The position numbers were made by a program, and so were the translations under genes. A stretch of DNA of 64,000 bases, taken from Blattabacterium sp. (Cryptocercus punctulatus) str. Cpu (GTDB taxonomy: Bacteria; Bacteroidota; Bacteroidia; Flavobacteriales; Blattabacteriaceae). A model generated the notes under the pieces. That model was not told the DNA's origin. It made no database searches and was given only the letters and a program-made list of their open reading frames with translations. Location: contig NC_016621.1 in NCBI RefSeq assembly GCF_000236405.1, positions 409,001-473,000 on the forward strand, written 5' to 3'. Below are positions 7,097-42,228 of the stretch, one piece after another. Position 1 is the stretch's first letter; each line of letters opens with the position of its first letter.

Positions 7097-7978
7097 TTAT
7101 TTTTTTTTGTTATTTAATGCGGCAGCTATTAAAATATTTTTTATAAGCATAATTCGGGTCATAGGACCAACTCCACCTGGGACAGGTGTAAGATAAGAAG
7201 CTTTTCCATAAACGCTATTAAAATCAACGTCTCCTTTTAAAATAAATTTTTTTTTATTTTTTACTTTATTAATGCCAACATCTATAATGATAGCTCCTTT
7301 TTTAATCATTTTTCCTGTTAAATAACCGGGAATTCCAACAGAAATTATAATTATATCTGCATTTTTCGTATAGTTTTCAATATTTTTAGTATAACTATGT
7401 GTCAGTGTTACAGTGCTATTTCCAAGATAATTTTTTCTACTCATCAAGATACTAATAGGTCTTCCTACAATACGACTTCTTCCAATTACTACAGTATTTT
7501 TACCAGAAATTTTTATTTTATATCTTTCTAAAAGAACTAATATTCCTAATGCAGTAGCGGGTAAAAAAGTATTCATATTCAAAGCCATTTTTCCAAAATT
7601 TTCGGGGTGAAATCCATCTACATCTTTTTTTGGATTAATTGCTAAAATGATATTATCCGTATTGATATGTTTTGGAATAGGTAATTGTATAATAAAACCA
7701 TCTATTAAAGAATTTTCATTCATTTTTTGAATTTCTTTTAATAATTCCAATTCGGAAATTTCTACAGTTAGATGTACTAAAGTTGATTGTATTCCAAGAT
7801 TTTTGCATTCTTTTATTTTACTATTGACATATATTAGACTGGAACTATTATTTCCTAATAAAATAATTCCAAGATGAGGAATTCGTTTTTTTTTATTTCG
7901 TATATTTTTATCTATTTCCTTAGAAATTTCTTTTCTTATTTCAATTGCTAAACGATTTCCATTTAATAATTGGGTCAT
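7097..7978 (-). CDS. folD: Methylenetetrahydrofolate dehydrogenase / cyclohydrolase
   Basis: Interconverts 5,10-methylene-THF and 10-formyl-THF, supplying formyl groups for PurN and PurH in this window. 293 residues, the usual length. Visible are the catalytic YVNSKIKECKNLGI helix (about 50-63), FIIQLPIPKHI, the Rossmann signature VVIGRSRIVGRPIS (about 163-176) and the C-terminal PVPGGVGPMT (about 265-274). The start overlaps the end of rsmA by 4 bp (ATGA), so they form a two-gene operon. Confidence 0.97.
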   Translation of the reverse strand: MTQLLNGNRLAIEIRKEISKEIDKNIRNKKKRIPHLGIILLGNNSSSLIYVNSKIKECKNLGIQSTLVHLTVEISELELLKEIQKMNENSLIDGFIIQLPIPKHINTDNIILAINPKKDVDGFHPENFGKMALNMNTFLPATALGILVLLERYKIKISGKNTVVIGRSRIVGRPISILMSRKNYLGNSTVTLTHSYTKNIENYTKNADIIIISVGIPGYLTGKMIKKGAIIIDVGINKVKNKKKFILKGDVDFNSVYGKASYLTPVPGGVGPMTRIMLIKNILIAAALNNKKK

Positions 7979-8852: not shown

Positions 8853-10118
8853 ATGCTTCAACCAACTTTTATACGTAATAATAGGAAAAAAGTTTTATTA
8901 GGATTAAAAAAAAGAAACTTTCAGAAAGTTTATTTGATAGATGAAATATTAACTTTAGATAAAAAAAAAGAATTAAAAACTGTTCTGAACAAAATTTCAA
9001 AAGAAGAAAATATAATATCCAAAAATATAAGTCATCTTATTCTGAATATGGATAAAGGTATAAAAATAAATTCTTTAAAAGAAAAATCCCTTTTTTTAAA
9101 AAAAAAAAAAGATTTTAATATTCAATTAAAAAATATTATTCAATGTTTAGAAGAAAAACTAAATCAAATACCTAATATACCCAATGAAAAAGTAAAAAAA
9201 AATGCCGATAAAGATGATATTCTTTTTCAAGAAGGTCCTATTTATTCAACAATAATGGAAGGAGCCCTTACTCATTGGGAATTATCTAAAAAATTTCATT
9301 TATTCGACTTATTATTAGGTACGAAAATATGTGGATCTGGTTTTTCAGTTTATATTGGAAAGGGGGCTAAATTACAAAGAAGTTTGATTCAATATTTTTT
9401 AGATCAGAATATCCGTGCTTCATATACAGAATACAGTTTTCCATATCTTATAAATGAAAAGTCAGGATATTCAACAGGACAAATTCCGGATAAAGAAGGT
9501 CAAATGTATTTAATAGAAAAAGATAATTTTTATCTTATCCCAACTGGCGAAATTCCTCTTATGAATTGTTATAGAGATAATATACTTACATATAAAGACT
9601 TACCAATAAAAGCTACTACTTATACTTCTTGCTTTAGAAGGGAAGCGGGATCTTATGGTTCTAAAGTTAGAGGATTAAATAGATTACATCAATTTGAAAA
9701 AGTGGAAATTATTCAAATTACTTCTCATGAAACTTCCTATTATTATTTAGAGGAAATGATTTTACATGTTAGAAACATTCTAAAATCTTTAGAATTACCG
9801 TTTCGAATACTTCGTTTAATTGGTAAAGATCTCGGTTATTCATCTTCTATAACTTATGATTTTGAAGTATATTCTATGGCACAAAAAAAATGGTTAGAAG
9901 TAAGTTCAATTTCAAATTGCACTAATTTTCAATCTAATAGATTAAATCTTCGATATAAAACTATTACAGGAAAAATGGAGTTTTGTCATACACTTAATGG
10001 AAGCTCATTAGCTTTACCACGAATTATTGCCGCTTTATTAGAAAATAATCAAACTGTAAATCAAATTAATATTCCTAAAGTTTTAATTCCTTATACAGGA
10101 TTTGATAATATTAAATAA
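8853..10118 (+). CDS. serS: Seryl-tRNA synthetase
   Basis: Class II synthetase charging tRNA-Ser. 421 residues, a normal length. The N-terminal coiled-coil arm that holds the tRNA long variable arm spans about 30-105. The catalytic core shows motif 2 (TTYTSCFRREAGSYG, about 249-263), TGEIPL, and motif 3 (NGSSLALPRIIAALLENNQ, about 386-404). Bases 9091-9110 are T7 followed by A13 inside the coiled-coil codons (LFLKKKKD), the longest A run I noticed in a gene here and a possible slippage site. The decayed metF remnant follows. Confidence 0.97.
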   Translation: MLQPTFIRNNRKKVLLGLKKRNFQKVYLIDEILTLDKKKELKTVLNKISKEENIISKNISHLILNMDKGIKINSLKEKSLFLKKKKDFNIQLKNIIQCLEEKLNQIPNIPNEKVKKNADKDDILFQEGPIYSTIMEGALTHWELSKKFHLFDLLLGTKICGSGFSVYIGKGAKLQRSLIQYFLDQNIRASYTEYSFPYLINEKSGYSTGQIPDKEGQMYLIEKDNFYLIPTGEIPLMNCYRDNILTYKDLPIKATTYTSCFRREAGSYGSKVRGLNRLHQFEKVEIIQITSHETSYYYLEEMILHVRNILKSLELPFRILRLIGKDLGYSSSITYDFEVYSMAQKKWLEVSSISNCTNFQSNRLNLRYKTITGKMEFCHTLNGSSLALPRIIAALLENNQTVNQINIPKVLIPYTGFDNIK

Positions 10119-10141
10119 AAAATATTTTTTCTAAAATTTAA

Positions 10142-10358
10142 TTAAATTGTCTTCCTTCTCGTTTTCATTTAAATATTCCTAATGAATTAGTAAAATAAAT
10201 TGAAAAATCAAAAGATAAAAAATTGATTTTTAATATTGGAATTGAATGATATATAAAACAATATAAAGAGTTAAAAAATTATTGAGTAAAATTCATTCAT
10301 TATTATACTATGGATAAACCCGAAAATATTTATTAAGATAGTTCAAGCTATTTATTAA
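10142..10358 (+). pseudogene. metF: Remnant of methylenetetrahydrofolate reductase, C-terminal end
   Basis: Only the last 70 or so codons are recognisable. The frame from 10142 reads LNCLPSRFHLNIPNELVK, then TAA (10196), IEKSKDKKLIFNIGIE, TGA (10247), YIKQYKELKNY, TGA (10283), VKFIHYYTMDKPENIY. A one-base insertion (extra T about 10334) then leads to KIVQAIY and a terminal TAA at 10356. This follows the C-terminus of bacterial MetF, whose hallmark is the HFYTM/L strand, and the expected pattern SLPKRFH...GVEW...YTM. The stops look like single-base changes, for example TGG to TGA at the conserved GIEW. The N-terminal three quarters are gone. TGG encodes Trp elsewhere, so recoding is not the explanation. 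Confidence 0.85.
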
Positions 10359-10363
10359 AAAAA

Positions 10364-11344
10364 TTAAACAAGATACAGTGTCTCTTTTATGGAGTTAATT
10401 ACTTTTTCTTCATTTGGAAACCAATTCTTTATCAAATGGGAAGAATAAGGTGCTGGTGTATCTAGTAAAGTTATTCTATTAATAGGAGCATCAAGGTAAT
10501 CAAATCCATATTTTTGTATAATATATGAAACTTCAGAAGCTATTGAAGCAAAAGGCCATGATTCCTCTAAAATAACTAAACGATTGGTTTTTTTTACAGA
10601 AAAAAGTATAGATTCATAATCTAATGGACGAATACTTCGAATATCTATTACTTCTACACTAATATTTTCTTTTTCTAATTTTTCTGCTATATTTAAAGCC
10701 AATTTCATAATTTTTCCAAAAGAAACTAAACTTATATCAGTTCCTACTTTTTTTATATCTGCCTTTCCAATAGGTAGTAGGTATTCTTCTTCTGGAATAA
10801 TCATAGTATCACCATACATTTGTTCAGATTCCATAAAAATTACGGGGTTATTATCTCTAATAGAAGATTTTAAAAGTCCTTTAGCATCATATGGATTACA
10901 TGGAATTACTACTTTTAAACCCGGACAACTTGCATACCAACTTTCAAAAGATTGAGAATGGGTAGCTCCTAATTGTCCAGCAGATCCAGTAGGTCCCCTA
11001 AAAACAATAGGAATATTCCATTGTCCACCACTCATATAACGTATTTTTGCAGCATTATTAATAATTTGATCCATTGCTACCAAAGAAAAATTAAATGTCA
11101 TAAATTCAATAATTGGGCGACAACCATTCATTGCTGATCCTACTCCTATACCAGAAAATCCTAATTCGGATATTGGAGTATCAATGACTCGTTTTGGCCC
11201 AAATTCTTCTAACATACCTTTAGAAGCTTTGTAAGCTCCATTATATTTAGCAACTTCTTCACCCATTAGATATACGGAGTTATCTCTTCTCATTTCTTCA
11301 CTCATAGCTTCCGCTATGACTTCACGAAAAGTAATTTTTTTCAT
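10364..11344 (-). CDS. pdhB: Pyruvate dehydrogenase E1 component, beta subunit
   Basis: The beta half of the heterotetrameric E1 that decarboxylates pyruvate with thiamine diphosphate. I place the start at the ATG at 11344 (MKKITFREVIAEAMSEEM), giving 326 residues. The frame extends to 11368, but those eight residues are not family-like. Visible are the pyrimidine-binding domain with MGEEVAKYNGAYKAS (about 29-43) and DTPISELGFSGIGVGSAM, then the transketolase C-terminal domain with VSFGKIMKLAL and ILEESWPF. The partner pdhA is not in the window. A strong terminator precedes it, so it has its own promoter. Confidence 0.94.
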   Translation of the reverse strand: MKKITFREVIAEAMSEEMRRDNSVYLMGEEVAKYNGAYKASKGMLEEFGPKRVIDTPISELGFSGIGVGSAMNGCRPIIEFMTFNFSLVAMDQIINNAAKIRYMSGGQWNIPIVFRGPTGSAGQLGATHSQSFESWYASCPGLKVVIPCNPYDAKGLLKSSIRDNNPVIFMESEQMYGDTMIIPEEEYLLPIGKADIKKVGTDISLVSFGKIMKLALNIAEKLEKENISVEVIDIRSIRPLDYESILFSVKKTNRLVILEESWPFASIASEVSYIIQKYGFDYLDAPINRITLLDTPAPYSSHLIKNWFPNEEKVINSIKETLYLV

Positions 11345-39633: not shown

Positions 39634-42228
39634 TTAATAATTTTTTTTTTCTATTCCAAAAGAATATTGAAATATTTTATCATTCCATAATTTTTTTTCA
39701 TAGAGAAAATTTTTTAGATAAAAAGATACAGATTGATCCTTTCCATATCTAGAAAAAATAATAAGTTGTTCCATAGGACGAGTAGTAGCTACATATAATA
39801 AATTTAGATTATCAATCCTTATTTTAGATAGATATTCTTCATAAATATTTATGAAAAAATGATCATTTATATATTTAAAATAAGGTTCTATTTCTATATA
39901 GATAGAATCCAACCCATGATATAAATTAGGACATACATCTATCCATATTCCTTCCTTTTTTTTTTTTGAAAAAGCATTCCAATCTGTAAAAGGGAGAATT
40001 ACTACAGGAAATTGCAATCCTTTAGATTTGTGAATAGTCATAATACGAAGAGCATCTGTATTATCAGAAATAATGATACTTTCTTTTTCTTTTTTGGATT
40101 CCCAATATTCTAAAAAATCTACAATAGAATTTCCTACAATTTTTATAGAACGATGAACAAAGTCTAAAAAAGAATAGATAGATTCCGTATTATATTGATT
40201 TAATAATCCAAATCCATCAATGACCTGTTCTACTATATTGTAGATAGATTTATTATATATATTTTTTAAATCTAATATTTTATTTGTAATAAAAATTTTT
40301 TTTAAAAAAAGATCGAATGGTAAAAAAATAGATTCTACTAGAAAGTCATGATCTCTTTTTTTGGTATAAATTAACTTATTTTTTAATAATAATAAAATTA
40401 AAGTAGCTCTTTTTTGATAACAATGTGGTTTTAAAAGTATATAAAAAAAATGTATAATGATTTCTATTTCCAAATGATTTTTTACAAGAAGAGATACGGA
40501 AGTATTTACAATAAATCCATCTTCTAAAAGTTTTTCAGATAAAAAATTTCCATCTTCGTTATTTCTAACTAATATAGCTATATCTGATAATTTATATTTC
40601 TGTTTTAACAATTTTTTTATTTTTTTTTTTATTTTACAGTAAAGTTCATTTCTGTAATTTTTTTGTTCTATAATAAAATTTAATTCTACATATCCTCCAG
40701 GTTTTTTAAATTCTTTTTGTTTGGATTCCTTATATATTTTTTTATAAAGAGTAGAATTAAAAATTTTAGATACTGATTGATAAAGTGAATTATTAAATTT
40801 TACAATTTCTTCATAACTACGAAAATTAGTACCTATAGTGATTATTTTTTTGTGATAAGATTTAGATGAAGAAGAAATTAAATGAAGAAAAAGATTATAA
40901 TCTACACCTCTCCAACGATATATAGATTGTTTAGGATCTCCTACAATCATAGCTGATCCATTTTCTGATAAAGCATTTTCAATTAGAATTCGAATATTAT
41001 ACCATTGTAAAAATGAAGTATCCTGAAATTCATCTAGAAAATAATGTTTATATTGTACCCCCATTTTTTCATAAATTAGGGGGATGGGATCTTGAATAAT
41101 TCTTTCATGAAGTATTTTATTTAATTCTGCGTTTAAAAAAATTTTTTTTTCTTCTTTTAAAAATAAAAATTCTTTTTCAATTTCCTGTATTATAGATAAA
41201 TAATGAAAATTTTTTAAAAAAAGTTTATCTAAAATATAGGAGAAAATATATTTTTTATATATAAATTTTGTTTCTTGATATAAAGAAAGTATTTTTTTTT
41301 TATTCCTTTCTATCAATATTTTTTGATCCATATTTATAGTAGAATTTTTACTACTATACAATACTTTTTTTTGAATAGATTTTTCAATACGTTGATGAAA
41401 AGGATTTAATATTATGTTTTTTACACGGAATTTTTGAAAAAGTTTTGGAAAATCTGAATAATAGAATGAATGTTTTTTAATAGATGTTTTTTTTAAAAAT
41501 TCAAAAAATTTTTCTCCTTGTTTTTTACATTTTTTTTCAAATTTTTTCGTTCTTTTTAACAATTTTTTTTTTAGTATTATCCAATCATCAAAAGATTGAA
41601 ATCTAATTTTTTTCATATAAAAAAAACTATTTTCCTCTACTATAAGACTAGCTATTTTAAATAGTTCTTTTCTGATATCCCAATTTTTTCCTTTTTTTAA
41701 TCTTTCCAAAGAAAATTGGATCAAAATATGAGACCATTTTTCTGAACTTTTTAATCTATTATATAAATTATCTATAACTTCCCATAAAAATTTATGGGTA
41801 TCCATTTCTATATATATATTTTTATTAGAAAAAAAAGATCGAATGATACGATAAGTAAATTTATCAATAGTACTTATAGATAAAGAAGAAAAATCGGATA
41901 AAATTTCAGATAATATTTTTTTAGCGCGTTCAGATAGTTGCCTTTTTGTTAATTTTAAATCTTTTATAATAGAATTGTACAAAGAATGATATTCCTTACT
42001 AATTTTTTGATTAGAAAATTCTTTTATACATTGTAATATCCTTTTTTTTATTTCTTCAGTAGCTTTATTTGTAAAAGTTAAAGCTAAAATCCGCTTGAAT
42101 TCGTCACAATGAGGACTTTTAAAAAGAATAAAAAGGTAATTTTTTACCAAAAAAAAAGTTTTTCCAGAGCCTGCTGAAGCGTTGTATATTTTTAATGTAG
42201 CTGGAATCAATATAATAAATTTTATCAA
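39634..42228 (-). CDS. RecB/AddA-like UvrD-family helicase without a nuclease domain
   Basis: Superfamily 1A helicase of 864 residues, as expected for the subunit of a RecBCD/AddAB double-strand-break repair enzyme. Motifs: YNASAGSGKTFFLV (motif I, Lys23), LALTFTNKATEEIKKRI (Ia), DEFQDTSFLQW (II), GDPKQSIYRWRGVDY (III), MTIHKSKGLQFPVVILPF (V), LNLLYVATTRPMEQLII (VI). The chain ends about 45 residues after motif VI, with no PD-(D/E)XK nuclease block; B. subtilis AddA and E. coli RecB run to about 1200. The only possible start is TTG at 42228. No recC, recD or addB neighbour is present. Confidence 0.87.
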   Translation of the reverse strand: MIKFIILIPATLKIYNASAGSGKTFFLVKNYLFILFKSPHCDEFKRILALTFTNKATEEIKKRILQCIKEFSNQKISKEYHSLYNSIIKDLKLTKRQLSERAKKILSEILSDFSSLSISTIDKFTYRIIRSFFSNKNIYIEMDTHKFLWEVIDNLYNRLKSSEKWSHILIQFSLERLKKGKNWDIRKELFKIASLIVEENSFFYMKKIRFQSFDDWIILKKKLLKRTKKFEKKCKKQGEKFFEFLKKTSIKKHSFYYSDFPKLFQKFRVKNIILNPFHQRIEKSIQKKVLYSSKNSTINMDQKILIERNKKKILSLYQETKFIYKKYIFSYILDKLFLKNFHYLSIIQEIEKEFLFLKEEKKIFLNAELNKILHERIIQDPIPLIYEKMGVQYKHYFLDEFQDTSFLQWYNIRILIENALSENGSAMIVGDPKQSIYRWRGVDYNLFLHLISSSSKSYHKKIITIGTNFRSYEEIVKFNNSLYQSVSKIFNSTLYKKIYKESKQKEFKKPGGYVELNFIIEQKNYRNELYCKIKKKIKKLLKQKYKLSDIAILVRNNEDGNFLSEKLLEDGFIVNTSVSLLVKNHLEIEIIIHFFYILLKPHCYQKRATLILLLLKNKLIYTKKRDHDFLVESIFLPFDLFLKKIFITNKILDLKNIYNKSIYNIVEQVIDGFGLLNQYNTESIYSFLDFVHRSIKIVGNSIVDFLEYWESKKEKESIIISDNTDALRIMTIHKSKGLQFPVVILPFTDWNAFSKKKKEGIWIDVCPNLYHGLDSIYIEIEPYFKYINDHFFINIYEEYLSKIRIDNLNLLYVATTRPMEQLIIFSRYGKDQSVSFYLKNFLYEKKLWNDKIFQYSFGIEKKNY

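Follow-up and report, generated by a model that had tools for sequence, protein, structure and literature searches.

A decayed metF between serS and pdhB in the Blattabacterium of Cryptocercus punctulatus

The short interval between serS and pdhB in Blattabacterium BCpu raises the question of whether it holds the decayed end of metF and, if so, what part the loss of this gene has played in the methionine supply of the cell. The window analysed here is a stretch of 64,000 nucleotides (G000:C2:409001-473000) from a two-contig genome that totals 609,561 bases, 605,745 of them in the longer contig; published figures for BCpu (NC_016621) are a total of 609,561, a chromosome of 605,745 bp and a plasmid of 3,816 bp (PMC6039017, Table 1). 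As a whole, the observations are best explained by a metF pseudogene in a methionine-reliant symbiont of Cryptocercus punctulatus, a reading to which we assign a probability of about 0.96. The features of the locus are as follows, G060 being the sister genome:

8853..10118, plus strand: serS, intact upstream neighbour
10118..10358, plus strand: metF pseudogene with no start codon, four internal stops and a +1 frameshift; 89% DNA identity to the intact metF of G060; PF02219, E 8.8e-6
10118..10133, plus strand: deletion junction, in which two imperfect 16-bp direct repeats are merged; in the sister they lie on either side of the 735 bp that are absent here
10139..10141, plus strand: in-frame TAA, CAA in the sister (codon 248)
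10196..10198, plus strand: in-frame TAA, GAA in the sister (codon 267)
10247..10249, plus strand: in-frame TGA, TGG in the sister (codon 284)
10283..10285, plus strand: in-frame TGA, GGA in the sister (codon 296)
10334, plus strand: one-base insertion of T, ambiguous by one position within TT; KIVQAIY-stop in the shifted frame
10364..11344, minus strand: pdhB, intact convergent neighbour, with its start at an internal ATG shared with relatives

The interval, bounded by the stop codons of serS (10116-10118) and pdhB (10364-10366), is filled by the metF remnant alone, which corresponds to codons 241-319 and the original stop codon (10356-10358) of a 319-codon gene. An earlier note, made from the letters alone, had recognised a decayed MetF C-terminus at 10142-10358; the identification and the end are borne out, but the start lies eight codons earlier than it had supposed, at ~10118. 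In a Pfam profile search, the remnant is the single MTHFR match in the genome (profile positions 222-279 of 287 in PF02219), and the matched region contains two TGA codons and one TAA. The match to TIGR00676 (E 5e-9) falls far under the equivalog cut-off, as expected of a fragment, and when the remnant, with an X for each stop, was compared with Pfam and NCBIfam, MTHFR families alone were matched, none other scoring better as the earlier note had allowed for. The tblastn comparison it had proposed, with the intact MetF of G060 as the query, gave 81% identity over codons 241-312 and 104 bits. The sequence is very AT-rich and of low complexity, so that the likeness to metF might be fortuitous, or might belong to a different family, but the top score among 100 shuffles was 16 bits, the position is syntenic with the intact metF of relatives and no family except MTHFR responds, leaving a chance resemblance with a negligible likelihood. 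The remnant is recognised by both MTHFR profiles; it is not a complete ORF, as the N-terminal part of the barrel is missing and the rest is interrupted, and it is thus an MTHFR-family pseudogene, a non-working member.

Relative to G060, exactly 735 bp are absent, including the metF start codon and the first 240 codons, in agreement with the earlier suggestion that the N-terminal three quarters had been deleted. The junction in the window reads AAAAATATTTTTTCTA, a hybrid of the two repeat copies of the sister, of which the left, AAAAATATTTTTTTTA, lies at the serS-metF junction and the right, AAACCTATTTCTTCTA, spans codons 241-246. The simplest reading is that one deletion of ~735 bp, probably by slippage or recombination between the imperfect 16-bp direct repeats, took the start and the first 240 codons, while the junction motif occurs a third time, without mismatch, at approximately codons 29-34 of the sister metF, which allows a two-step path. 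The extra T near KIVQAIY and three of the stops had been noticed before, the TAA at 10139 being a fourth that was overlooked. One-base insertions are common sequencing errors, and an intact metF misread through a fault of sequencing or assembly might be suspected, but a 735-bp deletion, four independent stops, changes that are neutral with respect to codon position and the parallel wreck of metE (see below) cannot all be errors, and with a genome completeness of 99.97% such a misreading is extremely unlikely.

A 319-aa metF is intact between serS and pdhB in each of the five relatives inspected at the locus (G060, G012, G035, G030 and G066), and the gene is intact in 47 of the 49 Blattabacterium genomes compared, a check on related strains that the earlier note had proposed. 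The changes on the branch leading to the window, polarised with G012 as the outgroup, G060 as the nearest relative compared and metF counted from codon 246, fall on codon positions 1, 2 and 3 as 10, 3 and 7 (of 75 each) in the remnant, and as 14, 5 and 38 (of 747 each) in serS and pdhB together. Thus, 8.7% of positions 1 and 2 have changed in the remnant (13/150) versus 1.3% (19/1494) in its neighbours (Fisher p ~1e-6), and the total rate in the remnant, 20/225, is at or above the third-position rate of serS and pdhB, 38/747 (p 0.05). This excess, and a rate that matches or surpasses third positions, argue that the remnant has been unconstrained, evolving in a near-neutral manner, over most of the branch that began when its lineage parted from that of G060, although so short a remnant gives an imprecise age. 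The earlier impression of a fairly recent inactivation is therefore only weakly right. The metE wreck has the same codon-position pattern (61, 63 and 32 changes), which indicates that both genes were released early on the branch and not lately. Sixteen of the 20 changes in the remnant are from G/C to A/T, and what remains of metF is gathering mostly such changes, and stops, and yields no product.

Disruption, an intact counterpart at the same locus in relatives and freedom from coding constraint, the marks of a pseudogene, are all found here. As the sole sequence between two convergent genes, the remnant could be imagined to keep a non-coding role, for instance as a spacer or terminator for serS and pdhB; the substitution rate, however, betrays no constraint, and the inspected relatives do without a spacer, their metF abutting both genes, making such a role very unlikely. 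Elsewhere in the genome, metE has decayed too.

G000:C2 ~109,940-111,680 (L123:1441-3178): metE pseudogene outside the window, nearly full length, with deletions, several frameshifts and no fewer than 13 stops

The alignment shows 13 or more stops in the metE wreck, together with many indels and with deletions that reach 234 bp, while the adjoining genes are intact, and metE itself is intact in the nearest relatives, G060, G012 and G035. A profile search across the 49 Blattabacterium genomes found no member of the S-methyl_trans families (MetH, BHMT, MmuM). Of the 49 genomes, 43 carry an intact metB/metC-type gene (PF01053). The gene lies in pieces with two stops in G064 (G064:C1:84826-85460), which keeps metE and metF, and is absent from BCpu, G060, G012, G035 and G025, where there are weak matches only; such matches occur genus-wide and are read as probable cross-matches to other PLP enzymes. 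MetX_acetyl (TIGR01392) has only weak partial matches throughout the genus and is uninformative for the methionine loss of BCpu. A search for AdoHcyase as an internal source of homocysteine ruled this candidate out, with no match in 49 genomes. No second metF, intact or otherwise, is present in the genome, and metK is intact in all 49 genomes.

With metE broken, the metB/metC-type gene absent and MetH, BHMT and MmuM all without a match, the whole branch is lost, leaving MetF nothing to feed, and the loss of metF is part of a whole-pathway loss, neither its cause nor its bottleneck. The same absences, together with the intact metK, indicate that methionine must come from outside the cell, presumably by import, although no MetQ-type lipoprotein that might serve as the importer was found in the genus; the imported methionine would be converted to SAM by MetK. 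The earlier proposal that loss of MetF stops methionine synthesis thus holds for the need of an outside supply, but not for metF as the point of failure. With reliance on outside methionine and loss of the homocysteine-making step, selection on metE and metF would have lapsed, and metF is likely to have been the last, not the first, link lost. FolD is kept at 7097-7978 in the window, and other folate steps are therefore retained. A separate observation is that serine hydroxymethyltransferase (PF00464) has no match in the whole genome, FolD being present.

The second genome with a decayed metF, the 511-kb Blattabacterium G025, has no MTHFR and no metE profile match.

L121:3280-4158 (G025): decayed metF between serS and pdhB, in an 879-bp gap; nearly full length, ~66% DNA identity over 739 bp

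The serS of G025 is only 68% identical to that of the window, and the closer relatives of the window keep metF intact, so that the two losses are independent, that of G025 apparently being the older event. Among the six genomes in which the metB-type gene is lost or broken, two have lost metE and metF, versus none of the 43 in which it is intact (p ~0.013 by hand, a value that assumes independent genomes, which these are not). It is thus conceivable, though somewhat doubtful, that losses follow a fixed order, the metB/metC-type step going first and metE and metF together afterwards, separately in BCpu and G025. Under such an order, strains that keep metE and metF (G060, G012 and G035) would use homocysteine from the host.

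When the window was compared automatically with the 70.5 kb of G060 that are syntenic with it, no further gene loss emerged away from the window edges. A UvrD-like ORF (39634-42228, minus strand) was considered as a second decayed gene and rejected, as it runs collinear with its counterpart in the sister from end to end and only lacks the ATG present there. That start reads ATT or is of ATA type, with an upstream TTG available and the frame otherwise intact; the gene may use a rare start codon, or its start may have been altered.

The remnant alters nothing known of the BCpu strain; it illustrates cleanly how a pathway erodes step by step in a nutritional symbiont, and the strains without homocysteine synthesis but with metE and metF suggest, testably, that homocysteine is supplied by the host. 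Compared with the metF of other Blattabacterium (TIGR00676/PF02219), the copy in BCpu shares the serS-pdhB locus and, over the remnant, is 89% identical in its DNA to that of the nearest relative, whereas theirs is an intact gene of 319 codons and that of BCpu is reduced to 79 codons. In the case of G025, the same gene is pseudogenised in the same place and metE is likewise unmatched, but there the decayed copy is nearly full length and far more diverged (~66%). Several essential amino-acid pathways have been lost in the C. punctulatus and Mastotermes strains (PMC9603385). By its genome size BCpu is the same strain, and the decay of metF belongs to that published loss of amino-acid pathways in BCpu and BMda. 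Neef et al. in 2011 are said to have placed methionine among the pathways completely lost in BCpu, and they, and Kinjo et al. in 2018, reportedly described the loss of amino-acid genes by whole pathways in BCpu and BMda; PMC9603385 cites both papers. The metF remnant is thus an ordinary pseudogene of a pathway known to be eroding.
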